This document shows, piece after piece, positions 18,782 through 39,601 of a DNA stretch of 50,545 nt (the first letter of the stretch is position 1; each line of letters starts with the position of its first letter). Position numbers and translations under genes: made by a program. The notes under the pieces were generated by a model that saw only the letters and a program-made list of their open reading frames with translations, was not told the DNA's origin and ran no database searches. The DNA is from Myxococcota bacterium. GTDB lineage: Bacteria > Myxococcota_C > UBA6777. Where the stretch lies: contig JAKLKB010000045.1 of NCBI GenBank assembly GCA_023150835.1, forward strand, positions 1 to 50,545. Direction: 5' to 3'.

Positions 18782-21700
18782 TCAAACGCGTGTGCGGTAA
18801 ACGCTGTGGATCTCTTGGAGGTGGCGGGGGAGCAAGATCGTCTCTTGCAAAGACGGCCAGTCCAAAACAGCGGCTTCGTTGCGTGCAAGCAGCGTCTTGA
18901 TCTCTTCGCGGGTGTATTCGTTGTGAGCCTTGCTGAACTGCGTGAATTGGAGGCGGATCACCTGATGGTTGTCTCGCAACGCCGCACAGATCGCAGAAAG
19001 CCCCGCCTGACCGATATCGTTGTGCAGCAAGTCCACGCTGCGCAGCACACGGTTCTGACGAAGCAGCCCCGCAAGATGCTCTGCACCTTCATCGCCAAGA
19101 AAGTTTCCAGACTCACCCAAAGCGCCCGTCCCACGCATATAACCGAGATCGAGGTGCAAGAGCGTCGGATGCGCGCACAAAGCCTCCGCCAAGATCGCTG
19201 CCGCCTGTGCGGTCAGACGGTTTGAAGCAAAACTCAAACGTTGCAAAGACGTATTGGCCGCAAGTGCCGGAGCCAACAAACGGATGCCCTCGTCACCAAG
19301 GCGATTGCAAGACAGAAACAGCGAATGAAGCGGTGGCCCCTCCGCCAAACAGCGTGCGATCACAAGAGCCGATCGGGCCGTTAATCCGTTGGCATCCAGA
19401 TACAAATGCCGCAGCGTTCGACTCGCGATCCAACCTTCTTCGAGTGCTTCGATCCCACGATCCAAAAGCCCGCAATTCAACAAGTCAAGGACTTCGAGCG
19501 CAGGGTGGGTTTTGAGCAACGCGGCGATATGCACCATCCCTTCGGCTCCAAGCGGGTTTCGCTTGAGCCAAAGATGCCGCACCTTTGGATCTTCGCCGAT
19601 CGCTTCGGTGACAGCGCGTAATCCGTCGGGCGTGATCTCGTTGCCTGCGATATACCAACCCTCCAACTTCGATCGCCCGCTGCGGATGTACGCGGCGATC
19701 TGACGTGCGCCTTCATCACCCACGATGTTGTTTCCAAGCAGCAAGCGCGTGACGTGACTGCTGTGCTGCATCGCCCCAAGCAAAGGCCCGATGCCTTCGG
19801 GTCCGACCACTTGCTTGCACAGATCCAGCCGTCCATCGGGCAACAGCGTTCCGCGTGTGAACGCAAGCACCTCACGGACAGGGCTATCTTCACGCAACCA
19901 GTCGAGCAAGGGCTCCAATTCTTCACGCGCACAAGGCAACACAGGCTCGGGCGCAGGGTGCAAGATCGGCGCAGGGATGGGATCTTGGCCCAAAAGCACG
20001 CGCTGTCGGCTTTGTTCGTAGATCTGTTGGATGCGTTGGTTGCGTTGGCGATCTGCAAAGTCCAACGACACATGATCGAGGGCCCGTCGAAGATCGCGCA
20101 GCATCCGATGATACCGAGTGTATCGGTACGCTTTGGCTTTTTGCAAACCTTCCTCGGTCCAAGGTTTCATCATCGCGCCCTGCTCAGGCAGCGGCCACAG
20201 CGCCATCGCGATATCGCACGCAAGGCGACACGACTTGTCCACAGCGTTGCGGCGTTTGGGGGCAAACCATGCACAATCACTCGGCCACGCAAGCCCTTCG
20301 AGCGTATGCGGATCGCTGCTGTCCACAGCAAGCCCCTGCTCCAATAAATCCCGATCTGCCGCAAGCTGCGTCGAAAACTGCATCACGATCCACCGATGAA
20401 GCTCTTGTAGCTGCTGATCCACCGCAGCGTTTGTCGCATCGCGATTTTGTGCGTTTTCCTCTGCAAGACGACACAGCCACGACCAACCAAGCACACGCGG
20501 GATCTGCGCAAAAGCTTCTTCGATCGCCGTCCGATGGGGCGTTTCTGTCTCTGCGTTGTACAGCCACAACGCCACCCAAAAACGCGCTGCCGACGCTGCC
20601 TTGTCCGCTTGTTGCAGTTGGCCCACCAACGACAAGATATCCTCTGACCTCAAAGCCGCCGAAGAGAGGGCAGCGAAGGCATCTGTCAACACAGGGAGCA
20701 GCGCAACAGCTTGGTTGTTTTGTGCGCTGGATGTCAGCCAAGTCCATTGTTGGAGCCGTTGTGCAGCCCGCGTGGTGGGGGTTTCCGCTTCTTCTTGGGG
20801 AGCTGTACGAAACTTCTGCACAAAAGCCCGAATCTCTTGAACAGGCCAACGATCGGGCACAAAGTGGCCGCCGCGATGTTCGATCACGACGGCATCTTGG
20901 AAACACGTTGCCAGCGCATGGGTGCGGGTGGGGTCCACCAAGATATCGTTCGCACCGACGATGTGCAACGAAGGGAGCGCGATCTTCCCGGGCTGTAGAA
21001 GCGATCGATGGGCATCCGCCCGCGATGGAAAGCCTGAGATACAGACCACAAAACGCAGCGATAGCCCGAGTTCTTCTCGCATCGCGGCAAGCAGGCCCGC
21101 CAAAGCACCCCCTTGGCTAAAGCCCACGATCCCGTCGAAGGGACCATACAGATCATCCATCTGCTTGATGTACGCAAACGAAAGCTCGATCCCTTCGTAG
21201 GTGGCGTTGCTTTCGTCTGCATTCCACCAACAGCGCTGGTGTTCTGTATCTTGTAGACGCCCAAAAGCCGCCAAGACGGCATCGCGCACTTCACCTGTTG
21301 GATCGTATGGCAGCGGTGCGTTGGCAAAGATCAACGTCGCGTCTTCTTCAAGCGCTTGACGCAACTTGCGTGTACGCGCACGCATCACCCGCGCATTTTG
21401 ACGAAAGCTATGCAAGACCAAGATATTGAGCTTCTTTGGCATGGTGGCAGGTGTCCCTGTTGCTTGGGCCTGCAAACCGATCGCTCGATTTGATCGAGCC
21501 GAAGCGATCGCGGAAAACGCAGCATCGAACGGATTGTTGGTAGATAACGCCGTAGCATCGGTCTGTGCAACGTCGGACAATGCTGTCGTATCGGCCTTCA
21601 CGGCGTCGGACAATGCTGTCGTATCGGGCTGTGAAGCATCGGATAACGCCGTATCATCGGGCTGTGCAGCGTCGGGATGGGTGGCGTCAGACAACGCCGT

Positions 21701-22471
21701 AGCATCGTTCTGCGCGGCGTCGAAATGGACGCTGACAGGCGATGTTGTGGTGTGGGGCTGAACAGAGCGCATAAATCCATACCTCTTGGTTTGGAGGAAT
21801 TCGGCCTCTTCGGGGGTGGTTTGGCGTCCCAAGAGGGCGTTGCGATGGGGATAACGGCCAAAAGTCGTAAGGATCTCCAGATGTTGCAAAGCAGATTGGT
21901 GCATCCGCTCGAATCGTTGGCGTTGTGGGAGGGGACTGTCGTCGATCAAGCGGGCCTTGAGGGCGACAGCTTGACGGACTCGTTCGATATCTTCGGCGTG
22001 TTCGAGCGCAAAGTAAAAGAACAAACGTTCTGCGGGTGCAACAGCGAGGTCGAAGCCTTGTTGGATCGCGTAGAGGGCGATCTCTTGGGCTTTTGCGTCG
22101 TATCGAAACATCGCCGCATCGCCGCGATGGATGTGGCGTGGAAACTGATCGAGCAGCAGCACCAAGGCTAGGCAACCGTGTGCTGTCGGGCGCAGAGCGT
22201 CTAACGCCCCTGTATCCGCAGCGATCACTCCCTCACCAAACCGCTCTTTGATCTCTGCATCGACCGCTGGGCCGCCACGAAACCACAATGCGCTTGGGTG
22301 CTTGTACGTTTGCTCTTTGGGATCTTGTTCTTCGCCAAACCAGTACCGTAAGACTTGGTCTGCGTACGCCCCCGCAAGATCGTCTGGCAACAAGCGACCC
22401 CATGAATGATTTTTTGTTTTTATGGTGTGTTCCTGAGAAAAATTCAAGAGATGAGACAGAAACGGCAACAC
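18782..22471 (-). CDS. DUF924 - FSH1 serine hydrolase - leucine-rich repeat fusion protein
   Basis: A 1229-residue chimera. Residues about 37-235 match DUF924: LRYWFGEEQDP, then LRPTAHGCLALVLLLDQFPR and HIHRGDAAMFRYD. A low-complexity linker (about 250-310) is made of 11-residue repeats around D-x-T-A-L-S-D. Residues about 347-552 form an FSH1-type serine hydrolase with nucleophile elbow VGFSQGGAL (Ser452), Asp in VGANDILVD and His536 in RGGHFVPD, so the triad is complete. A helical region of unknown kind (about 560-880) follows. The last 300 residues are ribonuclease-inhibitor-type leucine-rich repeats (for example LRHLYLDANGLTARSALVIA). No signal peptide is seen, so it is cytoplasmic. The start is uncertain: GTG at 22471 is listed, but no ATG precedes the first domain and a nearby TTG is possible. 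It probably acts as an esterase with LRR-guided binding. Confidence 0.85.
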   Translation of the reverse strand: MLPFLSHLLNFSQEHTIKTKNHSWGRLLPDDLAGAYADQVLRYWFGEEQDPKEQTYKHPSALWFRGGPAVDAEIKERFGEGVIAADTGALDALRPTAHGCLALVLLLDQFPRHIHRGDAAMFRYDAKAQEIALYAIQQGFDLAVAPAERLFFYFALEHAEDIERVRQAVALKARLIDDSPLPQRQRFERMHQSALQHLEILTTFGRYPHRNALLGRQTTPEEAEFLQTKRYGFMRSVQPHTTTSPVSVHFDAAQNDATALSDATHPDAAQPDDTALSDASQPDTTALSDAVKADTTALSDVAQTDATALSTNNPFDAAFSAIASARSNRAIGLQAQATGTPATMPKKLNILVLHSFRQNARVMRARTRKLRQALEEDATLIFANAPLPYDPTGEVRDAVLAAFGRLQDTEHQRCWWNADESNATYEGIELSFAYIKQMDDLYGPFDGIVGFSQGGALAGLLAAMREELGLSLRFVVCISGFPSRADAHRSLLQPGKIALPSLHIVGANDILVDPTRTHALATCFQDAVVIEHRGGHFVPDRWPVQEIRAFVQKFRTAPQEEAETPTTRAAQRLQQWTWLTSSAQNNQAVALLPVLTDAFAALSSAALRSEDILSLVGQLQQADKAASAARFWVALWLYNAETETPHRTAIEEAFAQIPRVLGWSWLCRLAEENAQNRDATNAAVDQQLQELHRWIVMQFSTQLAADRDLLEQGLAVDSSDPHTLEGLAWPSDCAWFAPKRRNAVDKSCRLACDIAMALWPLPEQGAMMKPWTEEGLQKAKAYRYTRYHRMLRDLRRALDHVSLDFADRQRNQRIQQIYEQSRQRVLLGQDPIPAPILHPAPEPVLPCAREELEPLLDWLREDSPVREVLAFTRGTLLPDGRLDLCKQVVGPEGIGPLLGAMQHSSHVTRLLLGNNIVGDEGARQIAAYIRSGRSKLEGWYIAGNEITPDGLRAVTEAIGEDPKVRHLWLKRNPLGAEGMVHIAALLKTHPALEVLDLLNCGLLDRGIEALEEGWIASRTLRHLYLDANGLTARSALVIARCLAEGPPLHSLFLSCNRLGDEGIRLLAPALAANTSLQRLSFASNRLTAQAAAILAEALCAHPTLLHLDLGYMRGTGALGESGNFLGDEGAEHLAGLLRQNRVLRSVDLLHNDIGQAGLSAICAALRDNHQVIRLQFTQFSKAHNEYTREEIKTLLARNEAAVLDWPSLQETILLPRHLQEIHSVYRTRV
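21541..21745 (-). repeat. 33-bp-type in-frame repeats encoding the DxTALSD linker
   Basis: Six imperfect units inside the fusion gene, visible on the plus strand as repeated TCGGACAATGCTGTCGTATC or GATAACGCCGTAGCATC. They encode the acidic Thr/Ser/Asp linker between the DUF924 and hydrolase domains. Confidence 0.8.
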
Positions 22472-23099
22472 GGCGACGGTCTGTTCTGCCTAATGGCCTT
22501 CTGCTGCGTGCTGTGCTTGTGTGGATTGGGCGGTGGGTGTAGGTGGATGGGGCTTGGAGTACATCGTCTTTGCTCCTTCGGGTTTTGCGCTTTGTTTCGC
22601 GACGGCCTCGCCTTCTTTGGCAAGCGGCCCGCCTGTGCAGCGGTTGGATGCCGCGAAAAAAGACATATGGCCTTCTTTGGCAAGCCACCGCCCTCCCCCT
22701 ACGCAAACCCCCAACGCAAAGTTCATCCACATCTCTGATAGCAACCCCACAAAACACCATCGGGGTAGCTCAAAAAAAACAAAGTGCCTTGTTTATAAAA
22801 TACTGAACATTAGCACATTTATTTATATGCAACAAGCTACGAGATTTTCAGAAAGTGAAAAGTCTTTTGAATTGTTTTTTGCTACCCTCTGACATGGCTT
22901 CTTTGCTCTTGAAGCCTTTGAGCAGACGCAATTAGCGGTCGATTCGGCGTTTTCATCTCGCTCTCGCATGATTTCTTCGCTATCACAGCCTTTCAACGGA
23001 GGTTCTGTGTGCAAAGAAGCGTACAATCGATTATTGTAAAAAGGCAACAAAATTAATTGCGTATCATGTTTGTGGTTTTTTGACGATGGAGAACACTCT
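22472..23099. other. Intergenic transition into the AT-rich island
   Basis: Between the fusion gene and the first caspase gene, transcribed away from each other. A weak small reading frame occupies 22490-22732 on the minus strand. Composition becomes clearly AT-rich from about 22760. TGGCCTTCTTTGGCAAGC occurs twice (about 22612 and 22670). Promoters for both flanking genes should lie here, but I cannot assign -10/-35 elements with confidence. Confidence 0.4.
22490..22732 (-). CDS. Possible small hypothetical protein upstream of the fusion gene
   Basis: An 80-residue frame with ATG at 22732 (and a second ATG at 22726), ending 18 bp before the GTG proposed for the fusion gene. It has no recognisable domain; it contains two LAKEG segments and a Pro/Thr/Gln-rich end. 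The close spacing would fit an operon leader, but low complexity makes chance equally likely. Confidence 0.22.
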   Translation of the reverse strand: MWMNFALGVCVGGGRWLAKEGHMSFFAASNRCTGGPLAKEGEAVAKQSAKPEGAKTMYSKPHPPTPTAQSTQAQHAAEGH

Positions 23100-24785
23100 G
23101 TGAGAAAGATAGTTTTGATAACGTTTATGCTGTGCTTTGTAGAGATGTGGCCTGCCTATCAGGCTCATGCAAAGCGCTACGCTTTGATCATCGGCGTGTC
23201 AACCTACCGCTACCAACCGAACAAAAACAACCTACCAAGCCCTCGTAAAGATGCGATCCGCTTCCAATCGTTGATGAACCGTTTAGGATTCAAAACAAAG
23301 ACACTCTTGGACAGCGAAGCCACGCCCGAAAACATACGTGAACACCTCAAATGGCTCCAACGAATGGGCCAAAATCCTAAACATACACTTGTTTTCTATT
23401 ATTCTGGGCACGGAGCGCAGATCCCCGACACCAACGGAGACGAACCCGACGGAAAAGATGAAACATTGTTTGCTTATGGAGCAGACCCAAAAGATCCAAA
23501 GCAGCACATCGTCGACGACGAACTTGAGGCATTCACACAAAGCGTGCGTGCAAAAATATTTTATGTGTTGGATAGCTGCCACTCTGGAACAGCCAACAAA
23601 TCCCTTCGTGGCGGAAAAAGTAAAAGACTTTACATCTCTGATCAAAACGAAAAAGAACAAGCCGTCGCGATAAAAATAATGACAGCAAAAAAAGGTAGCT
23701 TTTTTAATCGAAAAGGACGAAAGTCCATCTACGGAACAAACGAACTGCTGCTTTCTGCAGCCCGCAGCAACGAACCCGCACAAGATATGGGAAATGGTAG
23801 TTTGCTGACCAACGCGTTGCTGTACGTGCTAGAAAATCAAGGGACAAACATAACATTTCGCCAAATGTACGAGTCCATCAACAAATATGTAGCAGAAGTC
23901 TCCTTAAACATGGAAAAAAAACGATGCAAAGAAGACCATTCTTGCCGATCGCAAATCGAGCAGGTCATCGAGCAGAAAAAACGAGAGGGCTTCATGCTGC
24001 AACACCCCCAAATGCAAGGACTGCGACGATTAAAAGACTCCCCAGTGTTTTTTCAACCGACCGAATCCGCTCCCGAACACAGGACGGGGCTCAGCTCGTA
24101 TCAAAACCTCGACGTCAAAATCCGAGGATTCCGCGAACAAGCCAAAAAAGCTCTCGTGCATATATTGAAAAATTGGGGAGCCAATCCTTCCGACGAGAAA
24201 GCCGACACGCTAATCGAGCACGATGGCAAAGAACTAAGAGTCCTATTCCAAGGGCATCTTTTTGTTTCTCTGCCCGCCACCCAAAAGCATGCAGCGAAGT
24301 TAATGCCTTCTCTAAAACGTGTCATCACAACCCTTTATTGGTTGAAGAACTGGAAACAACTGGGTCCAAATAGTACAGAAATGCGCGTTGAATTGTTGGC
24401 TCGACAAACGAACGCAGGTTGGCAAAAAGCGATCGACGACACCGTTTACATCAAAACCAAAATCCGTATCCGCATCCTATTCCCAGAACACCCTTGCTTT
24501 TTTACCCTTGCTGTTTTGTCTAACCAAGGAACGATGGATATTCTTTTTCCACAAAAAAATCAATCCAATTATATGTCAGGAAAAAGAGAATTTTTATTCC
24601 CTTCCTCAGGGTACAGTCTTCGTGTTCACCCTCCCCAAGGTATGGGTATGATCATGGCTTTCTGTTCGATGAACAACGATCGCCTGATTACGATAAGAAA
24701 GCGCATCCGCAAAAAAGAACTTCTGCCACCTATACCCTTCCCCCCAGGCATCAAGCACGCCCTTTTTTCATATTTCGTAAAATAA
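23100..24785 (+). CDS. Exported caspase-family protease (C14) with DUF4384-like C-terminus
   Basis: 561 residues from the GTG at 23100, chosen because GGAG lies eight bases upstream and it starts a clear signal peptide (RKIVLITFMLCFVEMW, cleavage near QAHA). The caspase fold begins at YALIIGVSTY. The catalytic dyad is intact: His104 in YYSGHGAQ and Cys160 in VLDSCHSGTA. Between them is the acidic loop DTNGDEPDGKDETL found in bacterial orthocaspases and metacaspase-like enzymes. The C-terminal ~150 residues contain a beta-rich stretch (RIRILFPEHPCFFTLAVLSN) resembling DUF4384. It opens a five- or six-gene plus-strand cluster; the next gene starts 27 bp downstream. Export suggests action in the periplasm or outside the cell rather than in cytoplasmic programmed death. 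Confidence 0.9.
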   Translation: MRKIVLITFMLCFVEMWPAYQAHAKRYALIIGVSTYRYQPNKNNLPSPRKDAIRFQSLMNRLGFKTKTLLDSEATPENIREHLKWLQRMGQNPKHTLVFYYSGHGAQIPDTNGDEPDGKDETLFAYGADPKDPKQHIVDDELEAFTQSVRAKIFYVLDSCHSGTANKSLRGGKSKRLYISDQNEKEQAVAIKIMTAKKGSFFNRKGRKSIYGTNELLLSAARSNEPAQDMGNGSLLTNALLYVLENQGTNITFRQMYESINKYVAEVSLNMEKKRCKEDHSCRSQIEQVIEQKKREGFMLQHPQMQGLRRLKDSPVFFQPTESAPEHRTGLSSYQNLDVKIRGFREQAKKALVHILKNWGANPSDEKADTLIEHDGKELRVLFQGHLFVSLPATQKHAAKLMPSLKRVITTLYWLKNWKQLGPNSTEMRVELLARQTNAGWQKAIDDTVYIKTKIRIRILFPEHPCFFTLAVLSNQGTMDILFPQKNQSNYMSGKREFLFPSSGYSLRVHPPQGMGMIMAFCSMNNDRLITIRKRIRKKELLPPIPFPPGIKHALFSYFVK

Positions 24786-24812: not shown

Positions 24813-25343
24813 ATGCATATAAAAAAACGTTTCTTGTTCTTAATCATTGGTTTCATTTTCTTTTCTCTGCCCTCCGCTGCCCAATCAAAAATCGTGATGA
24901 ATGGCTTTTTTTACTTCCTTTTGGTTGATGAGCATGGTCAGGATAAAGCTGTTCCGATGAGCTATGCTCTGAAACACGGACAACTCTACAAGATCCTCGT
25001 CAAACCTTGGCAAAAAACGTACTTTCTAGCTTACCAAATTTCACCAAAAGAGATCCAAAGAATTTCCGTATCTTATCGCAAAGACTACGGCGCATTTCAA
25101 TTTCCCGCAGGAGACGCTTACCTCCGCTATAACGCAATCCTATCCACAAACCGTATTTTGTGGATAGGATTGCCAAAAGATCCAACGAGCAGCCAAAAAA
25201 AGACCCCACCGCCGCCCCAACCTCTCAAAGAAGAGGTCACCCCAGCTCAAACGCTGGAAGCTCCAGCAGGAGCAGGAGAATTTAGACGTATGACTTGGCC
25301 TCTCTCGTGGGTGTTTGATTTCCTACAATTAACCAAAAAATGA
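24813..25343 (+). CDS. Small exported DUF4384-like protein
   Basis: 176 residues starting at the ATG at 24813 after AAAGGAG (a somewhat long spacing). The signal peptide is HIKKRFLFLIIGFIFFSLP with cleavage near SAAQ. The mature part is a single small beta-rich domain with FPAGDAYLRYNAIL, reminiscent of the 'FRPPxGxEHLSF' end of the two clear DUF4384 proteins of this island, but divergent. A Pro-rich stretch and hydrophobic tail follow. It lies between caspase 1 and the DUF4384 lipoprotein in one probable transcript. The coding sequence contains a perfect 17-bp inverted repeat (25134-25173). Function unknown; inferred accessory of the caspase system. Confidence 0.72.
   Translation: MHIKKRFLFLIIGFIFFSLPSAAQSKIVMNGFFYFLLVDEHGQDKAVPMSYALKHGQLYKILVKPWQKTYFLAYQISPKEIQRISVSYRKDYGAFQFPAGDAYLRYNAILSTNRILWIGLPKDPTSSQKKTPPPPQPLKEEVTPAQTLEAPAGAGEFRRMTWPLSWVFDFLQLTKK
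25134..25173 (+). other. Perfect 17-bp inverted repeat inside a coding sequence
   Basis: Left arm GCAATCCTATCCACAAA (25134-25150), six-base loop CCGTAT, right arm TTTGTGGATAGGATTGC (25157-25173). The arms are exactly complementary and would form a strong hairpin in DNA or mRNA. There is no T-run, so it is not a standard terminator. It encodes ordinary-looking protein, NAILSTNRILWIGLPK. Confidence 0.9.
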
Positions 25344-25414
25344 ATCGTCTGGTGAAAAGAAGCTTCATGCTTTCAGGCGAACCACCGCGCTTCTACACAA
25401 CGAAAGGAGTCTTC

Positions 25415-26158
25415 ATGAGAAAACATGATTTTTGTTTCGCAAGGTTCGTCTTCGGAATATGCTTTGCCGTCGCGCTGAGTGGCTGTTTTGTACAAGTCAA
25501 AGATTTGTTTTCTTCACAAAATAAAACAGTCCTTCGCTTAACAACGCTGCATTATCGCCATAAAAACGATCCATCCCCAAAGCGCCTCCCTTTGTCGCGT
25601 GCTGTTCAACAACGCTACCAAACAACAGAAGCATTGCGGTTTGAGTTCACCGCTAACAAGCAAGGATTCTTATACGTTCTCCATCGCGATCCAAAAGGAC
25701 AATTTCACGCCCTTTACCCGGCAACCGAAGGAAACGAAGCAGACAGCCGAATCAACGCATACGAAACGTTTCGTTTTCCCAAAAAAGCCAAATTTGTATT
25801 CCGCCCGCCAACAGGTGACGAACACCTCTCCTTTGTGTTCGCATCCTCTTCTCTTTCTTTGGAGGATGCACGTGCTTACGCAGATCGTTGGATGCCTTAT
25901 CTCCCCCGTCATACAGCTATCTTGACCGAACCAACTTCCCCACGCTGCCCTGCGGAATATATGTACTTTAGCAATTGTCAAATTTTGTTTAATAAAAAAT
26001 TAAACAAAACTTTGGTGCTTACTCCTGATCAAGAACGAGATTATCAAGTCACAAGCGAATCAGATTTTTTCTCCTTACCTCAAAATATCCCTGAAAACGA
26101 GTACTTGAGCTATACGTCTGTTTCTTTTCGTTTGTCTCACGAACCTATCCGTCAATAG
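25415..26158 (+). CDS. DUF4384 lipoprotein
   Basis: 247 residues from the ATG at 25415, preceded by GAAAGGAG; an upstream ATG at 25340 overlaps the previous stop but would bury the signal. Lipobox VALSGC gives Cys24 as lipidation site. The DUF4384 core is clear: LRFEFTANKQGFLYVLHRDP, then LYPATEGNEADSRINAYETF and FRPPTGDEHLSFVFASS. DUF4384 is a small beta domain often attached to bacterial kinases or proteases. This protein is a close paralogue in layout of the minus-strand DUF4384 protein at 31644-32405. It lies 41 bp upstream of the second caspase gene, in the same probable operon. An 11-bp perfect hairpin occurs near its 3' end. Confidence 0.85.
   Translation: MRKHDFCFARFVFGICFAVALSGCFVQVKDLFSSQNKTVLRLTTLHYRHKNDPSPKRLPLSRAVQQRYQTTEALRFEFTANKQGFLYVLHRDPKGQFHALYPATEGNEADSRINAYETFRFPKKAKFVFRPPTGDEHLSFVFASSSLSLEDARAYADRWMPYLPRHTAILTEPTSPRCPAEYMYFSNCQILFNKKLNKTLVLTPDQERDYQVTSESDFFSLPQNIPENEYLSYTSVSFRLSHEPIRQ
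25983..26009 (+). other. Perfect 11-bp inverted repeat inside the DUF4384 lipoprotein gene
   Basis: Arms TTTTGTTTAAT and ATTAAACAAAA with a five-A loop. It is AT-only apart from one G/C pair and encodes part of LFNKKLNKT. It is the second intragenic hairpin in neighbouring genes of this island. Confidence 0.85.
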
Positions 26159-26199: not shown

Positions 26200-27693
26200 A
26201 TGAATGTTCGATTTTTTCTACTTTTCAGCTTGCTTTTTTTACTCACGCATTCGCCCAATCCTGCCAAAGCCGCTGGGTATGCCGTGTTGGTCGGTGTGGG
26301 TGACTACAAAATGGAAGACATCCGAGATCTTCCAAGCCCTCCTTCTGATGTTGAAAAAATAAAGAAAATGCTAATCAATGTTTATAAATTTCCTGAAGCC
26401 AATATCCGTGCCTTGGTGGATCGAGACGCGACCAAAGCCAACATCGCACGTGCATTGAGGTGGCTCGCGCAAGCCTCAAAAGAAGGAGATTCTTCCGTTT
26501 TTTACTTTTCAGGGCATGGCTCCCGCGTCAAGGATCTCAACGGAGACGAAGAAGACGGTTTTGATGAAACCATCGTTCCTTATGATGCGACCTTCGCACC
26601 ACAATCCCATGTCATCGACGACGAAATTCAAGCATGGCTCTATACAGTTCGCTCAAAAATTACCATCATTTTCGATAGTTGTCATAGCGGAACAGCGTAT
26701 AAAAGCATGAGAAGAAAAGTCGAACGTTTCTCAGGTTTAAAAAGTGGAGAAAAGCTGTCCATCAAATACTGGGAAAACCGAGTCATCTCTTCAACCAAAC
26801 GCGTCGGTCGTTATAGCGATGGGTTTCGCGCTTTGCGTGTTCAAGCACGCCCCAAAGATATACCGCCAGATTGGAACCGATTGTGGGGCATCGACCCAAC
26901 AAAAGACAGAAAACAGATGCCAGAGATGTCTTTCCTTGCGGCCGCTCTCCCTGAACAATACGCGATCGACGCTGGAGGCTCAATCGGCAGTGTATTTACG
27001 CATTTCTTAACGCGATTCGCCGCGAAAAATCCCGCAGCAAACCCAGAGCAGCTCATCCAATCCATCAATAGCGCGATGCCAGAACGCTTCGCGAAGATGA
27101 TGAAGCCCAACACAGAAGGGCAAACCAAAGTCCCTTTTCTCTTTCAGTCTTCCAACAACATCGAACAACACAACCTTTTAGCGGAGCAACGTGTTTGTGA
27201 AGGTACGTTCTGCGTTGTTGCGCAGATCCAAGACAAAAACGGACAAGTGAGAAATCATTTCGCAAAAGACTCCGAGATCCGCATCGTTTTCAAATTGAGC
27301 CAGCCCGGCTATTTGGTGGTGCTGAACCGAGATGCAAAAAAGCAAATGACTTTACTTTATCCCGACACTTACTACGATACTCTCAGCAAACAAAAACCGA
27401 ATGATGTCTATTTCTACGAAGCACAAAAAGATCACCTCTTGCCTCCTGGAGGCGATCAGTCTGACGGATTTATCAAAGTGAGCGGAGAACCCGGCGATAT
27501 CGAAACAGTAGAGATCCTTGCCGCCCCTCAACAAAAATCCCTACAAAAATTGATTCAAATGAAATCCATGAATTCAGATGGTCGCAAAAGCATAACGCAG
27601 CAGCTTGTATCTCAACACCTCCAAAAGCTAATGGTGCAAAAGCGAAACAATGGCGTCTATATCCGCCTCGCTTTTAAAACAACAGCACCTTGA
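26200..27693 (+). CDS. Exported caspase-family protease with C-terminal DUF4384 domain
   Basis: 497 residues; ATG at 26200 after AAAGAGGAG. Signal peptide RFFLLFSLLFLLTHSPNP with cleavage near AKAA. Caspase fold from YAVLVGVGDY; intact dyad His106 (FYFSGHGSRV) and Cys161 (IIFDSCHSGTA), with acidic loop DLNGDEEDGFDETIVPYD and the HVIDDEIQAW strand also present in caspase 1. After about residue 340 comes a DUF4384 domain (FKLSQPGYLVVLNRDAKKQM, LLYPDTYYD). This shows directly that the protease and the DUF4384 domain work together, since elsewhere in the cluster DUF4384 is encoded as a separate protein. Family members usually cleave after Arg or Lys; specificity is not certain here. Confidence 0.93.
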   Translation: MNVRFFLLFSLLFLLTHSPNPAKAAGYAVLVGVGDYKMEDIRDLPSPPSDVEKIKKMLINVYKFPEANIRALVDRDATKANIARALRWLAQASKEGDSSVFYFSGHGSRVKDLNGDEEDGFDETIVPYDATFAPQSHVIDDEIQAWLYTVRSKITIIFDSCHSGTAYKSMRRKVERFSGLKSGEKLSIKYWENRVISSTKRVGRYSDGFRALRVQARPKDIPPDWNRLWGIDPTKDRKQMPEMSFLAAALPEQYAIDAGGSIGSVFTHFLTRFAAKNPAANPEQLIQSINSAMPERFAKMMKPNTEGQTKVPFLFQSSNNIEQHNLLAEQRVCEGTFCVVAQIQDKNGQVRNHFAKDSEIRIVFKLSQPGYLVVLNRDAKKQMTLLYPDTYYDTLSKQKPNDVYFYEAQKDHLLPPGGDQSDGFIKVSGEPGDIETVEILAAPQQKSLQKLIQMKSMNSDGRKSITQQLVSQHLQKLMVQKRNNGVYIRLAFKTTAP

Positions 27694-28704: not shown

Positions 28705-28893
28705 CCTTGATAGTACGTGAGGAGATGTACAGTACATTTACACATCGATTTTGATGTACCGCAAACCGAGTCAAAAATGGATCAAATTAGACACGAAACA
28801 ACTCTCATTTTTCAAGCTTTATCAGTCCATCTATCCGAGCGGCTTTCGCGGTCGGATCTTCGTTTCGCTTTCCCCCTGTCAGGAGATTGATCG

Positions 28894-30810
28894 ATGCGAC
28901 GCTTTTATACTATGCGCTGGGCGTTTTGGTGCCTGCTTGTTGGTTGGGGAGGAATTCAAAAAAGCCATTCATCCAAAACGGTCCCCTCCAAAACGTATGC
29001 TTTTTTAGTTGGAGTGGACGTTTATAAAAACGCGTGGAAAGCGTTAGATTACGCAGTAGATGATATGGAAGAATTACGTGATTCTCTACGAAAAGATGGA
29101 CGTATCGATCAAGATAATATCGTTTTTCTAATGAATCATTCTGCGACCCGAGAAAATGTTCTACAATCATTTGACACGCTATGCCGTCGATTGCAGCCTA
29201 CAGATCTGTTGTTGTTTGCCTTCGCAGGTCACGCTTTGATGGATGAGCACGCAGGGTATCTCGTCTTACACGACACGGCACTACAAAACTTGCGCGCTTC
29301 TAGCTTGCGAAAAAGTGATCTTGTTTGCTCTCGTGTCAAAAAACGAGTCCTGTTTTTAGACACGTTTCGCTCGAAAAAAAAGAGAAGAGTACCTCTTTGG
29401 CGCGATGGCGTCCATGCTTCGCTCTTCGCAGAGACCAACCAAGTGGTCCTAGCACCCAGCCTATCCGAGCAAGAGCGGGGAAAACCTATCGGGGCGAGTT
29501 TTCGGCCCTTTATCTTCCATATCACCAAAGGGTTACGTGGAGAGGCCGATATGAACCGCGACGGCGTAGTCAGCTTGCTTGAGCTATGGGGACACATCAC
29601 CGCGCAGATCAAAGAAGCCACAGGATTGTCGGCAGAAGAGCAACGTCTTGCCACGTTGGCGGGTGAGTGGTCCGAATGGTTTCCACTAACTTACCCGAAA
29701 ACGTTGTTGCTTTTGGGGCGTATTCCTTCTCATCCACAAAGATCAAAAACAAATTGGTTGGCCGTCAAAAGCATCCCATCCGGAGCAAGTGTTTACGTAA
29801 ACGATAAGTTTTTTGGAAAAACTCCTTTTTTTCAAAAGATTTCACACGGAAAACAAAATATTATACTTCAAAAAGAAGGTTTTCACGCGTGGAAGAAAAC
29901 AATTTTTACATCGTCGAATGTAGAAAATATTCGATTGGTTCAGTTAAAAAAAATGGGAGAACCATCCCCGCAAGAAAACCCTACCAATACCGCCGAGAAC
30001 GAAAGGCCGGAGGTTGGCCGAGGCCGCCCAGCAGGCTTCCGCAAACCCTTGAACGCTTGGCCTAGCGTTTCTATCCGATGGATTCCACCAGGCACATTCC
30101 GAATGGGTTCCCCAACCCACGAAGAAGGCCGCTATAAAAACGAAGGTCCACCCCGAGAGATCCGAATCACTCACGGTTTTTGGATGTGGGAAACAGAAGT
30201 AACGCAAAGCCAGTTCATTGCCTTGATGGGCTATAATCCCTCGTTTTTCAAGCGTTGTGGCCTAAAATGCCCTGTGGAACGAGTCACATGGCACAACGCT
30301 GCGATGTTTGCAAATCGTGTTTCTTTACTAGAAAAAAGAGAAACTTGTTTTCGATGCAAAAACAATCGTTGCCGCTTAAAATCTCCTTTTCTTGGAAGCG
30401 GCGTTTATTCTCGTTGCAAGGGGTGGCGATTGCCGACTGAATCAGAATGGGAATACGCAGCAAGAGCAGGGCAAACCACTTCACGCTACGCAGAAAACTG
30501 GAATTCTATCGCGTGGTGCAAAGAAAACAGCCAAAACAAAACCTCTCCTGTGGGGGCAAAGCGACCGAACCCTTGGGGATTACACGATATGTTGGGGAAT
30601 GTTTGGGAGTGGACATTGGACGCTTGGATACCTTATCGAGAGCGAACGCTTTCTGTTGACCCGCTGTACGTAAGCGGTAGCAAGTACGTGTCACGCGGAG
30701 GCGCATGGTCTCATTCCAAACGCGCCGCACGCTTCGCCACGCGAGCGCGTGGCAGCGGCCACGGCTACGGTTGGTTTTTAGGCTTCCGTCTCGTGCGCTC
30801 TGCTCCATAA
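28894..30810 (+). CDS. Pseudocaspase - PEGA - FGE-like (C-type-lectin fold) fusion protein
   Basis: 638 residues; ATG at 28894 after CAGGAG. A short hydrophobic N-terminus (MRWAFWCLLVGWGG) suggests export. Residues about 33-265 are a caspase fold: YAFLVGVDVYKNAWKALDYA and LLLFAFAGHAL (His113), but the cysteine segment reads FLDTFRSKK, with Phe158 where DSCHSG proteins have Cys, so it cannot be an active caspase. GEADMNRDGVVSLLELW matches the region after the core in active relatives. A PEGA-like domain (about 289-350) follows. Residues about 393-636 are an FGE/SUMF1-type domain (WIPPGTFRMGS, WRLPTESEWEYAARAG, LGNVWEWTLDAW, SRGGAWSHSKRAARFATRAR). The two catalytic cysteines of true FGE, which lie just after the RGG segment, are absent. 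I infer a binding or scaffold protein. Confidence 0.88.
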   Translation: MRRFYTMRWAFWCLLVGWGGIQKSHSSKTVPSKTYAFLVGVDVYKNAWKALDYAVDDMEELRDSLRKDGRIDQDNIVFLMNHSATRENVLQSFDTLCRRLQPTDLLLFAFAGHALMDEHAGYLVLHDTALQNLRASSLRKSDLVCSRVKKRVLFLDTFRSKKKRRVPLWRDGVHASLFAETNQVVLAPSLSEQERGKPIGASFRPFIFHITKGLRGEADMNRDGVVSLLELWGHITAQIKEATGLSAEEQRLATLAGEWSEWFPLTYPKTLLLLGRIPSHPQRSKTNWLAVKSIPSGASVYVNDKFFGKTPFFQKISHGKQNIILQKEGFHAWKKTIFTSSNVENIRLVQLKKMGEPSPQENPTNTAENERPEVGRGRPAGFRKPLNAWPSVSIRWIPPGTFRMGSPTHEEGRYKNEGPPREIRITHGFWMWETEVTQSQFIALMGYNPSFFKRCGLKCPVERVTWHNAAMFANRVSLLEKRETCFRCKNNRCRLKSPFLGSGVYSRCKGWRLPTESEWEYAARAGQTTSRYAENWNSIAWCKENSQNKTSPVGAKRPNPWGLHDMLGNVWEWTLDAWIPYRERTLSVDPLYVSGSKYVSRGGAWSHSKRAARFATRARGSGHGYGWFLGFRLVRSAP

Positions 30811-31385: not shown

Positions 31386-31562
31386 GAAAAGACGAAAAAA
31401 GAAAGAAAGGTAAGAGTGATCGATAAAGAAAGAAGATGATGCGGTACGTCGATATCGGGCAAACAAAGAGTGGGGTCCCCCGCTCGTGGCAGCCCGAGAA
31501 TGGAACGGCCACAGAAGAGCCGCTGTCGGCACACTTCTCTTCAGTTTCAGATAATCGATGAA

Positions 31563-31660
31563 CGAAGATGATGATTACTGGTGAGCGAAGATGATGATTA
31601 CTGGTGAGCGAAGATGATGATTACTGGTGAGCGAAGATGATGATTACTGGTGAGCGAAGA
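31563..31660 (-). repeat. 23-bp tandem repeat, four copies, containing a gene's 3' end
   Basis: Units begin at 31563, 31586, 31609 and 31632 with a partial fifth at 31655; each reads GCGAAGATGATGATTACTGG plus TGA on the plus strand. On the minus strand every unit contains TTCGCTCACCAGTAA, the last codons and stop of the DUF4384 gene, whose real stop (31646-31644) is in the fourth unit. The array thus copies the gene end downstream three times. 23 is not a multiple of three. Confidence 0.95.
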
Positions 31661-32405
31661 AGAAACGAACAAACAAGACACTGACTTGTTGTGGCTTGAG
31701 ATTTTGCCTTGGAAGCACGATGTAGTCGGCATCTTGCGCAGGTTCGTGATCGGCTTCCATCACCAAGGTTTTCCCGTGGCCTTTTGCGTTCATGATGATC
31801 TGAACCGCCAAGTTTGTATTTTCCTTTGGGCCTTGGTTGGTTTCTACGTTTCGGATGATATCGCTTCGGCGTTGCTCGCTTACTGCAGGAAAACCATAAT
31901 CATTGGCACAGGAAAAAAGCTGTTCTTTAAATAGTTTTTTATCCGTCACAACAAAAGAAAGATGTTCAAGTCCTCGAGGAGGACGAAACGTGAATTTCGC
32001 ACCGTGAGGGAAATGGAAAGCTTTCATTGCTTTGATGCGATTTTTTTGGTTCTTTTTGTTGGGAGTGTTGGCGGCAGGATAAAGGACAGACATATCTCCC
32101 TTCGGATCCCGATGCAAAACATAGAGATACCCGCTGTGATTGCTTGTCACTTCAAAAGTCACCTGCTCTCCACTTTTGTAATAGCGCCGGGTTGCTACAG
32201 AAAGCGGCATTTTGGTCTTGGAAACTGTTCCGTCGGGATTGTTTGTGTACACCACCACTTTGATTTCCAAGCCTTTTTTTCGTTTGGTTTGATCAGGCTC
32301 CAACACCAACGTTTTGAGGGAAGGTTTGGCCAAGGCTTGTCCTGTCAGAGCGACGCAGAAAACGGTCATCCATCCGACGAACATGGAGAAAACATACTTT
32401 TTCAT
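31644..32405 (-). CDS. Exported DUF4384 protein
   Basis: 253 residues from the ATG at 32405, which follows AAAGAGGTG and starts a signal peptide (KKYVFSMFVGWMTVFCVAL, cleavage near QALA). No lipobox Cys is seen, unlike its relative at 25415. The core matches: VTFEVTSNHSGYLYVLHRDP, then VLYPAANTPNKK and FRPPRGLEHLSFVVTDK. It and the plus-strand lipoprotein share the same motif order and a similar VLxxDxExxxDY segment, so they are paralogues. It directly follows the minus-strand caspase gene (125-bp gap), repeating the caspase-then-DUF4384 order of the plus-strand arm. Its 3' end is part of the 23-bp tandem array. Confidence 0.85.
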   Translation of the reverse strand: MKKYVFSMFVGWMTVFCVALTGQALAKPSLKTLVLEPDQTKRKKGLEIKVVVYTNNPDGTVSKTKMPLSVATRRYYKSGEQVTFEVTSNHSGYLYVLHRDPKGDMSVLYPAANTPNKKNQKNRIKAMKAFHFPHGAKFTFRPPRGLEHLSFVVTDKKLFKEQLFSCANDYGFPAVSEQRRSDIIRNVETNQGPKENTNLAVQIIMNAKGHGKTLVMEADHEPAQDADYIVLPRQNLKPQQVSVLFVRFFFAHQ

Positions 32406-32530
32406 GAGATCACCTCTTTGCTGAGTAAAGGATGTCCTTTTCGAACATCCGACATTGCGATGAAAACACCGATCGTTGAAGCCGTTGGTTCCGTTTTGAG
32501 TTGTTTTTTTCATGGTCGTATAATTTTCTT

Positions 32531-34045
32531 CTACATTCCTCCCTCAAAAAGCAATGATGATTTCTCTTTTTGATGGACGCCTTGCGCCATGCTTGGCCGC
32601 TCCAAAAAAGATCGAGACGCGCTGCCTTGTGCACGACTTCGTGCTGGATTCGTAAAGTACAAGATCAAGCCTGTGACAACCAACACGCCCCCCACCGCAT
32701 ACAGAGCGTAAGCCGCGTTGCTCGCTGTATTGATTGTGCTAAATTGGTTTCCAAAAACCCCTGTAGCTGCCATGATATGAACTGTTGCTCCAACCACAAC
32801 GATCCCCCCCCCCAAGCCCATCGCTGCGTGAGGCCATTTCCCAAAATCAACCGAACCCTCAAAATCAAAATCGATCCCTTGGGAGTCGTCTTCCGAGAGC
32901 GCAACGTATTTTTCTTTTTTAACATTACCACCAATTCCTACGATACGATACCGTCCCGCAGGAAGACGCACTTCTTGCCGCCGAACTCCCTTGTAGCTTG
33001 CAAAGCTTTCGTATCGACCATTCTTTTTTTCGCGGTACACCTCGATCATCGCATCGTCTTTGTTTGAGGTCAGATTGATCGACGCCTGCCGAAGTGCCGC
33101 ACCTCCGGGAAAAGAAAGCGGGACGTTTCCAACAATCGTCCCGTGAGTCACCACAGTTTGCTCATGCCCTTTGTGACGCCGAGCAAGCTCCGAAACACGC
33201 GTGCCGAGATAAGCTTGTAACTCTTGCACCGTCACAACACCGTCTTTCGGCATTTTATCCGCTTTTCCTTTCAATGCTTCGATCAGTGCGTACGTAAACG
33301 CGCCATGCCCCAGCTTGGGTATCTCTACGCTGTACTGCTCTTGTGTCGAAGAAGCGATGGTCACGCGTCCTCTTCCCGTCAAATTCAGGCTTTTTAGGTC
33401 AATGCCTTTGCTTCCCCCTCGATATCCGTCTCTATTTTTTTCTTCTTTTTCATCTCTCATTTTTTTCAATATTTTATCATTCAAAGTATTTCTAAAATCT
33501 TTTTTTTCTGTAAATTTTGCAGAGTCCGCCCCGCTGTTGCAAGCGTCGATCAACAAAGTCACCGTGATCGAAGAGTCTATTCTCGGAGGGCTAACCCAAA
33601 GCCGAAGTTCTTCAAGATCGATCCCCTGCTCTAATTTTAGCTCTCCATCGTTTCGACCGAACGTTGACTCGTACGTCACCCAATAAGAGACGCGCTTTGC
33701 CGCCCAGCCATGCCCAGAAAAGTAGATCACCACGCTATCACCAGCTTTTGCAACAGAAGGCAGCCATGTAAATACCGCCGCTTTGATTTTGGCTTCTGTA
33801 GCCTCGCTGTTGATTAACATCCTGATGTTTTCTTTTTTGACTTTGCCTTCGTTTGTGAGAGCAGAGTGCAACGCTTTGGTATCCGCTACTGCGTAGCGCA
33901 GATCAGGGATATACTCGTTGTTTTTGTAATCATCGATCCCGATCAATACAGCGTACACGCTGGCTGTTGTTTGAGCATACGCAGCAGTTGCTTGAGAAAA
34001 CAAGCAAAGCATCAGAAAGCACAATGTATGGCAGATCTTATTCAT
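32531..34045 (-). CDS. Exported caspase-family protease with two C-terminal membrane helices
   Basis: 504 residues; ATG at 34045 with GAAAGG upstream. Signal peptide KICHTLCFLMLCLFSQ with cleavage near AYAQ. Caspase fold from YAVLIGIDDY; dyad His112 (IYFSGHGWAA) and Cys169 (LLIDACNSGAD). It lacks the NGDEPDG loop of caspases 1 and 2 and has a charged insertion after the Cys (about 178-215), so it belongs to another subtype, with the KDGVVTVQELQAYL segment common after caspase cores. A small beta domain with LPAGRYRIVGIGG (about 320-400) leads to two hydrophobic helices (MGLGGGIVVVGATVHIMAA and AYALYAVGGVLVVTGLILY), so the protease is held at the membrane. First gene of the minus-strand arm. 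Confidence 0.92.
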   Translation of the reverse strand: MNKICHTLCFLMLCLFSQATAAYAQTTASVYAVLIGIDDYKNNEYIPDLRYAVADTKALHSALTNEGKVKKENIRMLINSEATEAKIKAAVFTWLPSVAKAGDSVVIYFSGHGWAAKRVSYWVTYESTFGRNDGELKLEQGIDLEELRLWVSPPRIDSSITVTLLIDACNSGADSAKFTEKKDFRNTLNDKILKKMRDEKEEKNRDGYRGGSKGIDLKSLNLTGRGRVTIASSTQEQYSVEIPKLGHGAFTYALIEALKGKADKMPKDGVVTVQELQAYLGTRVSELARRHKGHEQTVVTHGTIVGNVPLSFPGGAALRQASINLTSNKDDAMIEVYREKKNGRYESFASYKGVRRQEVRLPAGRYRIVGIGGNVKKEKYVALSEDDSQGIDFDFEGSVDFGKWPHAAMGLGGGIVVVGATVHIMAATGVFGNQFSTINTASNAAYALYAVGGVLVVTGLILYFTNPARSRAQGSASRSFLERPSMAQGVHQKEKSSLLFEGGM

Positions 34046-34193: not shown

Positions 34194-37100
34194 TTATTGG
34201 CAAATTCCGTTGACACAGCTTTGTCCGCTACCGCAAGAACGCCCACAAGATCCGCAATTCAGGTTGTTGGTTTGGATATCGACACAGGTTGCCAGTCCGG
34301 GGCAAGGCGTCGAATTTGTCGTCGAACACGGGTTGGGCAAGAACCACAAAAAAGTAGCGCCTCGTTGTCCGCCTGTTTCGTAAATTCGCCCGGGAATATT
34401 TGAAAACACACCATTCGCATAAAAGCTGCCTAGCGCGTACATATTGCCTTGGCTGTCACTATCCACTCTGTAAATCTCGTCGCGCACTCCTTGGGCGTTG
34501 AGAGTCAAAGCGCCACCTCGAACTGTTTCTGCTCGCACAATTTTTCCAGCAGGATCAAGTTGAAGGAAGAAAGGATCTGCACCGTTGGCGTCAGGAACAG
34601 ATACCCCCAGATTGATTTTTCCGACATAGGCTCCCCCAGCATAAAGGCCATTTTGAGGAGCAGGAAAAAGAGAGTACGCGATCTCATCGCCTTCTTGGGC
34701 TGGAGGGGTATAACACCACTGACGAGTGAGGTTCGATAGCGAAAATTGACACACAAACAAGTCCGTTTGGGCCGTATGAGAAGGAAGGCTCGTTAGCTGA
34801 CCCGTAAAATTTCCACTCACAAATAGAGCAGCTCCCTGCAAAAGAGTTCCGTAGGTGTTAATGACCGTGCTCGCATTCGTACTGAACTGTGGAGAGATAT
34901 CATGAAGCGATTGCATCACAAGATTCTTGTCAAATTTAGCGACAAACACACCACGCTGAAGGGAAGACGTGATTTTTTTACTTCCATCAGAATCAGACAT
35001 ACTGTCTCCTTGATGGAACAGACCGATAGCAAATAAATTATCGCTTTGATCGATCTTGAGATGCTGGATGCCGCCCCCTGTTTCTTTGGGCTGCCATACC
35101 TTCACGACACTTCCTTGGTTGTTGATCTTCGCAAGATACGTTCTTCCCCCCAGGGCCAAGAGCGAAGAACCTGTTGCCCCTGTAAACGTGGCGTCGCCAT
35201 TCGATCGCGCCCCCCAAACGAAGATCTCGTGCTGGCTATTTACGACAAATCCTCTGGCATATATCGCTTCGGCAGCATCGGGATTTTTTGCATGAAGCCA
35301 AACGTTGGTGGTGTTGCCTGTTGCCATATCGAGGGACGCGATAACGAGACCACGGTTGCCAGCGGAGTAGGTCTTGCTCTGGAGCACAAAGTCGCCACGG
35401 TATAAGAAAAAAATGTAGAGTGACTGTTTATTGGGACCCCATCCAAGCGTACACTCAAAGAGAGAGGTCGTCGCAGCCCATTGTTTTACCCACAGCATCT
35501 TTCTATTTTTGTCTAATTTCACGACAAGACAAGCTGTACCGGTTGGATCGTTTGCGTTTCCAAATGAGAAGGTCTGATTTTCGACTTGAACAGAGCCATG
35601 AAAGCGCGTGGATATATAGAAGTGATCGGATGAATCGATGAGCATGGTGGGAACGATGGCGCTACCCGCTTGGGTGGGTGGTTCTTTGATGGTGTACACC
35701 CACGGACATCCTTCATCGATTTGTCCGTTGCAATTGTTATCCAGATTGTCCTGACAGATTTCTTTTGTTTCTTTGCATTTGCAAGATCCGTTATCGCATT
35801 TTTCGAGCGTCAAATCGCATTTGTTGCCGCAAGCTCCGCAATGTTGGATATCCGTCTGAATTTCTTTGCAACTGCTTCCACAAGCGAGCTGCGTGCTTGG
35901 GCAGCTTATTTTGCAGACACCCTCGCTGCACAGGGGTTGTCCCGCTGGGCAAACATTCCCACAGCTACCGCAATGTTTGTCGTTGGATCGAGTGTCCACG
36001 CAACTTCCCGAACATTCAGTTTGCCCTGCGAGCGGGCATTGACAAAGCCCCCCGCGACAAGTCTGATCTTGGCGGCAAGAAACACCGCAGCCACCACAAT
36101 GAGTTAGGCTTTCTTGAGCATTGACACAAGTCCCGCTACAGGCCAGATAACCCGACGGACACAAACAGACGCCTTCTTGGCATTTGCTCCCGAACGGGCA
36201 TTTTTGACTGCATTGACCGCAATGATCGGGATCTTTGCTTACATTTTTGCACGAGCCACCACACTCGACCTCCCCCAAACCACATTGACAAAGCCCCGCA
36301 CGACAGACCTGTTCTTGGCGACAAGCAACACCACACGCTCCGCAATTGGTGACGCTGTCCTGGATGCTTGCACAAACACCACTACAGGAAAGAAACCCAT
36401 TGTCGCACTGACATTCACTGTTTTTGCAATTGCTATTTGCTCCGCATTGCTTACCACATTGGCCGCAGTTGGCTGGGTCGGCTACCGTATTTTTACAAGA
36501 TCCATCGCAATCTTTTTGTCCGGGAGGGCATTGACATTCACCGTTGTTGCAGCTTTGGTCGGAGCGGCAAACCTTACCGCAAGCTCCGCAGTGTTCACGT
36601 CTGTTTTGTGTGTCGACGCACGAACCACCACAATTTTCTTCGCCCACTTTACAAGCACATTGGCCCTCCAAGCATTGGAGTCCTTTTGTTTGGTCGCAGG
36701 CGTTGTTGCAATCTCCGCAGTGCTGGGGATTGTCTCGGATATTGACGCAAGTGTCGCCGCAGTACTTTTGTCCCGGATCGCAACTGCAAGCTCCTTCGAT
36801 GCACTTTTGCCCTGTAAGGCAGACTTTGCCACATTCACCGCAGTGGTTTGCATCTTTTCGCAAGTTTGTACACGAACTGCCGCATTGGGTGGGAGTCTCT
36901 GGCTTTTTGTCGCACTCAAGGTTCGGGAGCCAGTTGCCGCCCGTACAAACCTCACCCCCCCGCGCCAAGGGGCGATCACCGCCCTGTTCGTTGTCGATCA
37001 GACCATCGCAGTCGTCATCTTGCCCGTTGCAAACCTCGGCTTTTCCATTTTCGCAGGGATAACAAACAAGAGCGGAACCCGTCGAGACGTTGACGCAGAA

Positions 37101-37394
37101 GCCGTTTTTTACGTTTTGAATGAAGCAGTTCGCGTTTTTCTCATCGCAGGTCGGCAGGCAGGCTTTTTTTGAACCTTCATCCGAAACCCCAAAGAGGCGG
37201 CGATCCGTACGAGGGATCGTAATACACGATTGATTGTCGCCACACTTTCCGTCTGTGTCGCACAACACAGGCTTCCATTCGGGTTGCGTGCAACCTTGCT
37301 GCAAGCCGAGAAAGAGCAGCGATAGCAACAAAAACGCATCTTGAAGTCGCGACGAGCGCTTGGGGGGGGATATCTGTTTGAAACGTTGAAGCAT
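34194..37394 (-). CDS. Large Cys-rich lipoprotein: MopE motifs, nine CGxCGxxC repeats, beta-propeller-like C-terminus
   Basis: 1066 residues; ATG at 37394. Lipobox FLGLQQGC (Cys35). A MopE-type metal-binding motif, VCNGQDDDCDGLIDNE, is near 125-140, followed by nine repeats of about 42 residues with the pattern HCGxCGxxC...C..G.C.C (for example QHCGDCNNACDQTKGLQC). A second MopE motif (DNLDNNCNGQIDEGC) closes this half. The C-terminal ~480 residues lack Cys and resemble SBBP-type beta-propellers (AWLYVVKLDKN-like blades such as LVVKLDKNRKMLWVKQW and VFVAKFDKNLVMQSLHDI). A tenth Cys repeat ends the protein. Such repeats are frequent in Myxococcota surface proteins. The many cysteines require oxidative folding, consistent with the nearby DsbD gene. 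Role unknown; calcium or copper binding and adhesion are plausible. Confidence 0.85.
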   Translation of the reverse strand: MLQRFKQISPPKRSSRLQDAFLLLSLLFLGLQQGCTQPEWKPVLCDTDGKCGDNQSCITIPRTDRRLFGVSDEGSKKACLPTCDEKNANCFIQNVKNGFCVNVSTGSALVCYPCENGKAEVCNGQDDDCDGLIDNEQGGDRPLARGGEVCTGGNWLPNLECDKKPETPTQCGSSCTNLRKDANHCGECGKVCLTGQKCIEGACSCDPGQKYCGDTCVNIRDNPQHCGDCNNACDQTKGLQCLEGQCACKVGEENCGGSCVDTQNRREHCGACGKVCRSDQSCNNGECQCPPGQKDCDGSCKNTVADPANCGQCGKQCGANSNCKNSECQCDNGFLSCSGVCASIQDSVTNCGACGVACRQEQVCRAGLCQCGLGEVECGGSCKNVSKDPDHCGQCSQKCPFGSKCQEGVCLCPSGYLACSGTCVNAQESLTHCGGCGVSCRQDQTCRGGLCQCPLAGQTECSGSCVDTRSNDKHCGSCGNVCPAGQPLCSEGVCKISCPSTQLACGSSCKEIQTDIQHCGACGNKCDLTLEKCDNGSCKCKETKEICQDNLDNNCNGQIDEGCPWVYTIKEPPTQAGSAIVPTMLIDSSDHFYISTRFHGSVQVENQTFSFGNANDPTGTACLVVKLDKNRKMLWVKQWAATTSLFECTLGWGPNKQSLYIFFLYRGDFVLQSKTYSAGNRGLVIASLDMATGNTTNVWLHAKNPDAAEAIYARGFVVNSQHEIFVWGARSNGDATFTGATGSSLLALGGRTYLAKINNQGSVVKVWQPKETGGGIQHLKIDQSDNLFAIGLFHQGDSMSDSDGSKKITSSLQRGVFVAKFDKNLVMQSLHDISPQFSTNASTVINTYGTLLQGAALFVSGNFTGQLTSLPSHTAQTDLFVCQFSLSNLTRQWCYTPPAQEGDEIAYSLFPAPQNGLYAGGAYVGKINLGVSVPDANGADPFFLQLDPAGKIVRAETVRGGALTLNAQGVRDEIYRVDSDSQGNMYALGSFYANGVFSNIPGRIYETGGQRGATFLWFLPNPCSTTNSTPCPGLATCVDIQTNNLNCGSCGRSCGSGQSCVNGICQ

Positions 37395-39412: not shown

Positions 39413-39601
39413 AAAGTTGTTTGAAATAATAATCGCTCACTTCTTGCTTTCTAGCCTAAATCAGCAGGTTCGAGTCCCGCACTGACAAAGTTGTTTGAAA
39501 TAATAATCGCTTACTTCTTGCTCTCTAGCCCAAATCAGCATCCTCGAGGTGAACATTGACAAAGTTGTTTGAAAAAATAATCGCTTACTTCTTGCTTTCT
39601 C
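39413..39601 (-). repeat. 74-bp tandem repeat, 2.5 copies, copying the 3' end of a Cys-rich gene
   Basis: Units begin AAAGTTGTTTGAAA at 39413, 39487 and 39561 (exact 74-bp period); the last is partial (about 41 bp). The third overlaps the end of the gene at 39535-41004, and the stop lies in the second. On the minus strand each copy still encodes KQEVSDYxFKQL followed by a different tail: CQCSPRGC in the gene, CQCGTRTC and YPCLG in the copies. 74 is not a multiple of three and the copies lie behind stops. Confidence 0.92.

Follow-up and report, generated by a model that had tools for sequence, protein, structure and literature searches.

We analysed a window of 50,545 nucleotides from a Myxococcota bacterium, in which one gene encodes a 638-aa protein that joins a caspase-fold domain with phenylalanine in place of the catalytic cysteine to a PEGA domain and a domain resembling formylglycine-generating enzyme (FGE). 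Our preferred reading, to which we give a probability of roughly one half, is that this protein is a ligand-binding sensor or regulator whose dead caspase domain binds without cutting, and we regard this as somewhat likelier than the domain being a folded relic.

Table 1. The pseudo-orthocaspase gene, its parts and the surrounding cluster, with positions in the window.
Feature	Position	Strand	Basis
Target gene, 638-aa pseudo-orthocaspase/PEGA/FGE-like protein	28894..30810	+	ORF and domain matches
AGGAG, likely ribosome-binding site (Shine-Dalgarno-like)	28881..28885	+	Read directly; 8 nt 5' of ATG
N-terminal signal-like segment, residues 1-28, RR...WAFWCLLVGW	28894..28977	+	Sequence inference
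Caspase-fold domain, residues 30-270, catalytically substituted	28981..29703	+	Pfam, AlphaFold2 model, VIA-align
His113, retained dyad residue, context FAGHAL	29230..29232	+	Sequence
Phe158 (TTT) at catalytic Cys position, context FLDTFRSKK	29365..29367	+	Sequence
EF-hand-like loop DMNRDGVVSLLE, retained	29548..29583	+	Pattern comparison with phylum relatives
PEGA domain, residues 289-339	29758..29910	+	Pfam, 40.9 bits
FGE-sulfatase/FGE-subtype C-type-lectin-fold domain, residues 396-635	30079..30798	+	Pfam, 143 bits; TvpA structural match
C-terminal segment RGGAWSHSKRAARFATRARGSGHGYGWFLGFR, without FGE Cys pair; aligns with variable region of retroelement-diversified paralogues	30694..30789	+	
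Intact orthocaspase with DUF4384, YYSGHG/LDSCHSG	23070..24785	+	
Small protein, signal-like N-terminus, no Pfam match	24813..25343	+	
DUF4384 protein	25340..26158	+	Pfam
Intact orthocaspase with DUF4384, YFSGHG/IFDSCHSG; 37-39% identical homologue in G002 cluster	26200..27693	+	
OmpA-family protein; G002 cluster homologue, 36% over 123 aa	27769..28704	+	
DUF4384 protein	31644..32513	-	Pfam
Intact orthocaspase, YFSGHG/LIDACNSG	32531..34045	-	

The open reading frame starts with ATG and runs for 638 codons without an internal stop (Table 1). Judged by its signal-like N-terminus the protein is probably exported, and the signal-like N-termini of neighbouring products suggest the same for them. The match to Peptidase_C14 (PF00656) scores 26.3 bits, barely above the Pfam cut-off of 21.4, and the FGE (SUMF1) fold is recognised by PF03781 at 143 bits; the pattern of the EF-hand-like loop is also found in 29/56 relatives within the phylum. 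An earlier note on this DNA had described a dead caspase with the motifs AGHAL and DTFRSKK, and both are present, within FAGHAL and FLDTFRSKK: the dyad histidine (H113) is kept, the cysteine (C158) is replaced by phenylalanine, GHG has become GHA, and the DxCxSG motif surrounding the catalytic cysteine of active orthocaspases (Peptidase C14) reads DTFRSK. The note had also credited the neighbouring active caspases with DSCHSG; all three do have an intact dyad, but only two carry this motif, the third having DACNSG.

A single T-to-G base would turn F158 into cysteine, but an isolated sequencing error does not suffice as an explanation: eight further conserved positions around the site, at which the two closest intact relatives agree, are altered too (G114A, A157T, G161K, S188P, R190L, Q191S, E197K and G204R), so that loss of the cysteine does not hang on one base. 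Of 43 columns invariant across five intact relatives, 26 are retained. We infer from these residues that the domain has lost proteolysis. That it is still an enzyme, using another nucleophile (Thr157 or Ser160) or having some other activity, is extremely improbable: His113 and Asp156 are retained, but GHG is altered, the S188, Q191, E197 and G204 seen in the intact relatives have given way to other residues, and we know of no caspase-fold protease which uses this set of residues.

The predicted structure supports both folds that the earlier note had proposed to check in this way. AlphaFold2 was run with a 36-row alignment which included intact relatives, on which the model leans, and gave a mean pLDDT of 76.9 with residues 30-160 mostly at about 90 or above; a single-sequence prediction of the caspase domain reached a pLDDT of 37, too low to inform on the fold. 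When compared with VIA-align, residues 30-270 of the alignment-guided model matched MALT1 (Z 20.6), procaspase-6 (Z 19.9) and metacaspase 4 (Z 19.7), consistent with a caspase fold at Z of about 20, while the best match of residues 388-637 was TvpA of Treponema denticola (2y3c; Z 27.9, rmsd 2.4 Å over 234 residues), with human FGE weaker at Z 22.7.

Homologues with an intact dyad and all three domains were found in two places. The first, in another genus (G002:C97), is a caspase-PEGA-FGE protein with FFSGHG and FADACQSG, cut off by the contig end, in a cluster which also contains an OmpA gene and a caspase-DUF4384 gene at 37-39% identity to ours. The second is a full-length three-domain homologue with MFAGHG and MLDACHSG in a Lysobacterales MAG (L103). 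Both keep His-Cys; the caspase half of our protein did lose its dyad cysteine and, with it, probably its activity. The L103 gene (1-2043) lies at the very end of its contig, and the other genes on that contig look unrelated to the caspase cluster; its placement points either to horizontal transfer or to a mistake in joining or binning. No close homologue was found in the MAG of the sister species (86% complete), and no second genome contained an exact copy of the pseudo form.

Relative rates of the caspase domain point to acceleration in our protein, with 42 unique changes versus 13 in L103 (outgroup W33) and 45 versus 14 (outgroup G004:C23), and with 42 versus 17 and 41 versus 20, respectively, when compared with G002. 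The outgroup G003:C17 also gave significant numbers, but it may be a sister of G002, and the figures quoted therefore come from W33 and G004:C23; with L033 the excess was weak (34 versus 18) or not significant (35 versus 25). Fast evolution is limited to the caspase domain, as the FGE domain is not faster (30 versus 33 unique changes in L103, outgroup L033), and the excess changes have no clear concentration at the active site.

These data bear directly on the main rival to the sensor or regulator, namely that only the FGE-like binding domain and PEGA work, and that the caspase domain drifts as a folded relic, held in frame for the domain downstream. This has a lesser but appreciable chance: intact homologues exist in another genus and in L103, the fast evolution is confined to the caspase domain, pocket residues have gone along with the cysteine, the branch on the caspase tree is very long (2.47 changes per site), and the need to preserve the FGE-like domain downstream could by itself explain the open frame. 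The earlier note had itself named an orthologue with intact cysteine as a sign of mere decay, and such a homologue does exist, in the corresponding cluster of a different genus, but the frame and the predicted folds are intact. Also speaking against a relic are the EF-hand-like loop, which has been kept, and the 42/46 positions retained in the hydrophobic core, although the core count and the 12/21 conserved polar positions kept both fall inside the range spanned by intact relatives and therefore do not part a working pseudoenzyme from a relic. There is no stop or frameshift, and the codon preference of the caspase part equals that of the FGE part, an agreement which does not discriminate between pseudoenzyme and decay; synonymous sites are presumed to be saturated at this divergence.

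Simple decay is further opposed by a second caspase-PEGA-FGE protein from another genus (G004:C24 959-3193, equivalent to L213 460-2694 on the plus strand), which has lost both dyad residues (WFAGQAL and FLDIRGRGS, H to Q and C to R) and also retains its full frame; its caspase part is too degenerate for Pfam and was found only by a home-made profile. Among the 60 caspase domains with both dyad columns in five genomes of the phylum, 57 have His-Cys and three lack a dyad residue: our protein (His-Phe), G004:C24 (Gln-Arg) and a caspase on contig C63 of our genome (Gln-Cys). Dyad loss is thus over-represented among the FGE-fused caspases of these genomes (2/5 versus 1/55 of the others, p 0.016), in a post hoc comparison of very few genes. 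The caspase tree pairs our protein with L103 (71/94) and the concatenated tree pairs it with G004:C24 (65/77), a clade that the AU test does not reject; the trees are thus compatible with either one or two origins of dyad loss in these two proteins.

The FGE-like half leads to a different conclusion. In the RGG segment, RGGAWSHSKRAAR, the positions of C336 and C341 of human FGE are occupied by H and A, in agreement with the earlier note, which had both cysteines missing. It had concluded that one protein had suffered both losses, making it a double pseudoenzyme, and this does not hold: the cysteine pair is present in 0/35 distinct FGE-like C-termini of this genome and its relatives (either cysteine in 1/35), and since the pair is absent from all of them, the domain probably did not lose its cysteines. 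With no cysteine pair, TvpA as the closest solved structure and paralogues that are targets of a diversity-generating retroelement (DGR), this half is better read as a C-type-lectin binding module than as a dead enzyme, with ligand binding as its likely role, which bears out the suggestion of a binding module made earlier.

The DGR of the same genome is located on contig C63 (L175/L039, G000:C63), and comprises Avd (86.9 bits versus a curated cut-off of 80), a template-like sequence RGGSWNNNARNVRSANRNNNAPTNRNNNLGFR, which is a repeat rich in AAC codons, and a reverse transcriptase whose reading frame this assembly shows as broken. When the caspase-FGE paralogue on contig C182 (L033, G000:C182) was compared with this template, 21/29 A positions differed versus 3/67 non-A positions (p 8e-12), and the corresponding differences were 15 A and two non-A positions for L034 (G001:C12), and 15 A and four non-A positions for L187 (G000:C204). 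L033 and L034 represent one caspase-FGE gene in two species, strikingly divergent across the variable region. This pattern indicates that the DGR diversifies dispersed FGE-like genes of the genome, including the C182 caspase-FGE paralogue. A scan for A-specific repeats inside single loci gave no template/variable pair, and the pairs emerged when C-termini were compared across contigs. Next to the DGR there is also a caspase-like ORF (L039 5052-6230, minus strand, G000:C63) with Q instead of the dyad His and LATCFSR around the Cys, which resembles the C182 caspase; the FGE part is absent from the same frame.

Our protein was rejected as a current variable protein of this DGR, since it has 37/67 non-A mismatches to the template. 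Its C-terminus is the farthest from the template among the aligned C-termini, tied with one other on non-A mismatches, and blastn with its last 147 bases found nothing similar in the rest of the genome. TvpA and TaqVP are DGR variable proteins with the FGE subtype of the C-type-lectin fold, and TaqVP lacks the FGE catalytic residues (PMC6328139). Our protein shares with them the fold and the missing cysteine pair and is homologous to DGR targets of its own genome, but its C-terminus, unlike theirs, does not currently copy the template repeat. Such FGE-subtype domains have been proposed as antigen sensors (PMC10907252), and the pairing of FGE-type sensor and caspase-type peptidase that the C182 paralogue shows is also found in DGR-diversified antigen sensors coupled to peptidases (PMC10907252, PMC7517822); those sensors work together with kinases or with NTPases of the STAND or MoxR type, whereas none is adjacent in our cluster, which looks exported.

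A scan with defence models pointed to no named defence system; the only hits were to a generic caspase model and, weakly, to MotB-type OmpA. At the 3' end of the minus-strand DUF4384 gene there are tandem repeats of about 23 bases (gatgatgattactggtgagcgaa, window 31560-31660). Elsewhere in the window, the regions 34194-37394, 39535-41004 and 49576-50442 encode proteins with STIG1-like cysteine-rich stretches, with eight in a 1066-aa protein, and two of these proteins also carry MopE-type metal-binding motifs; a 1229-aa ORF (18785-22471, minus strand) joins leucine-rich repeats to DUF924 and an FSH1 serine hydrolase within a single frame.

An inhibitory pseudocaspase has its precedent in animal c-FLIP, and our gene adjoins three dyad-intact caspase genes, in a cluster that has a homologous counterpart in another genus, and its product retains the predicted fold. 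The dead caspase domain could accordingly pair with a neighbouring caspase and hold it inactive until the FGE-like domain binds ligand. We consider this quite improbable, as the homologous G002 cluster does its job with an intact copy, and as inhibition through dimers is not expected if metacaspases and orthocaspases act as monomers, as they are mostly thought to do.

Pseudo-orthocaspases as such are already known, and make up 858 of 9,994 orthocaspases (Klemencic et al. 2019, PMC6426788). Like our protein they combine a caspase p20-type fold with substitution in the His-Cys dyad and occur in genomes that also contain true orthocaspases, but their common dyads are YS, YA, YN and FS (PMC6426788), unlike the His-Phe of our protein and the Gln-Arg of the G004 protein, and our protein is probably exported and has PEGA and FGE-like domains. 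Fusions of metacaspases or orthocaspases with FGE-sulfatase domains are known as well: 33 sequences have been listed, including a dyad-negative caspase-FGE of Trichodesmium erythraeum (PMC3501461), and among 39 FGE-orthocaspases from cyanobacteria there is one pseudo-variant (PMC8283722). The domain order in these fusions, caspase followed by FGE (PMC3501461, PMC8283722), is that of our protein, which differs in the PEGA domain in between and in its cluster with three active caspases. New here are the PEGA domain, the uncommon dyad and the setting beside active caspases.

In the sensor or regulator that we favour, the caspase domain would descend from an active orthocaspase, within a caspase-PEGA-FGE protein of an envelope caspase/DUF4384/OmpA cluster, and would in this lineage have lost its cysteine and several pocket residues while keeping the fold and the EF-hand-like loop. 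The FGE-like domain, which in this family was probably never an FGE enzyme, would bind something in the envelope, with PEGA as anchor or spacer, and the dead caspase domain would bind what caspases bind, be it substrate, activator or partner, without cutting. The three active neighbours may be damped or localised by the protein as a result.

The protein represents a rare FGE-linked pseudo-orthocaspase, and because it has active neighbours and intact homologues, the fate of a caspase after it stops cutting is testable within one gene cluster. Earlier work read formylglycine chemistry or protein modification into the FGE-sulfatase label of caspase fusions (PMC3501461, PMC8283722). Our results bear on that reading, since the C-termini examined here all lack the cysteine pair and some of them are retroelement-diversified. 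A broader scenario, which we regard as unlikely, is that some members of the exported caspase/FGE family have abandoned proteolysis time and again, turning into decoy receptors or into regulators of those caspases that still cut, while their paralogues within one genome keep their activity and are diversified by a retroelement. If true, the family would parallel, in the envelope, the division of death receptors into active and decoy forms.
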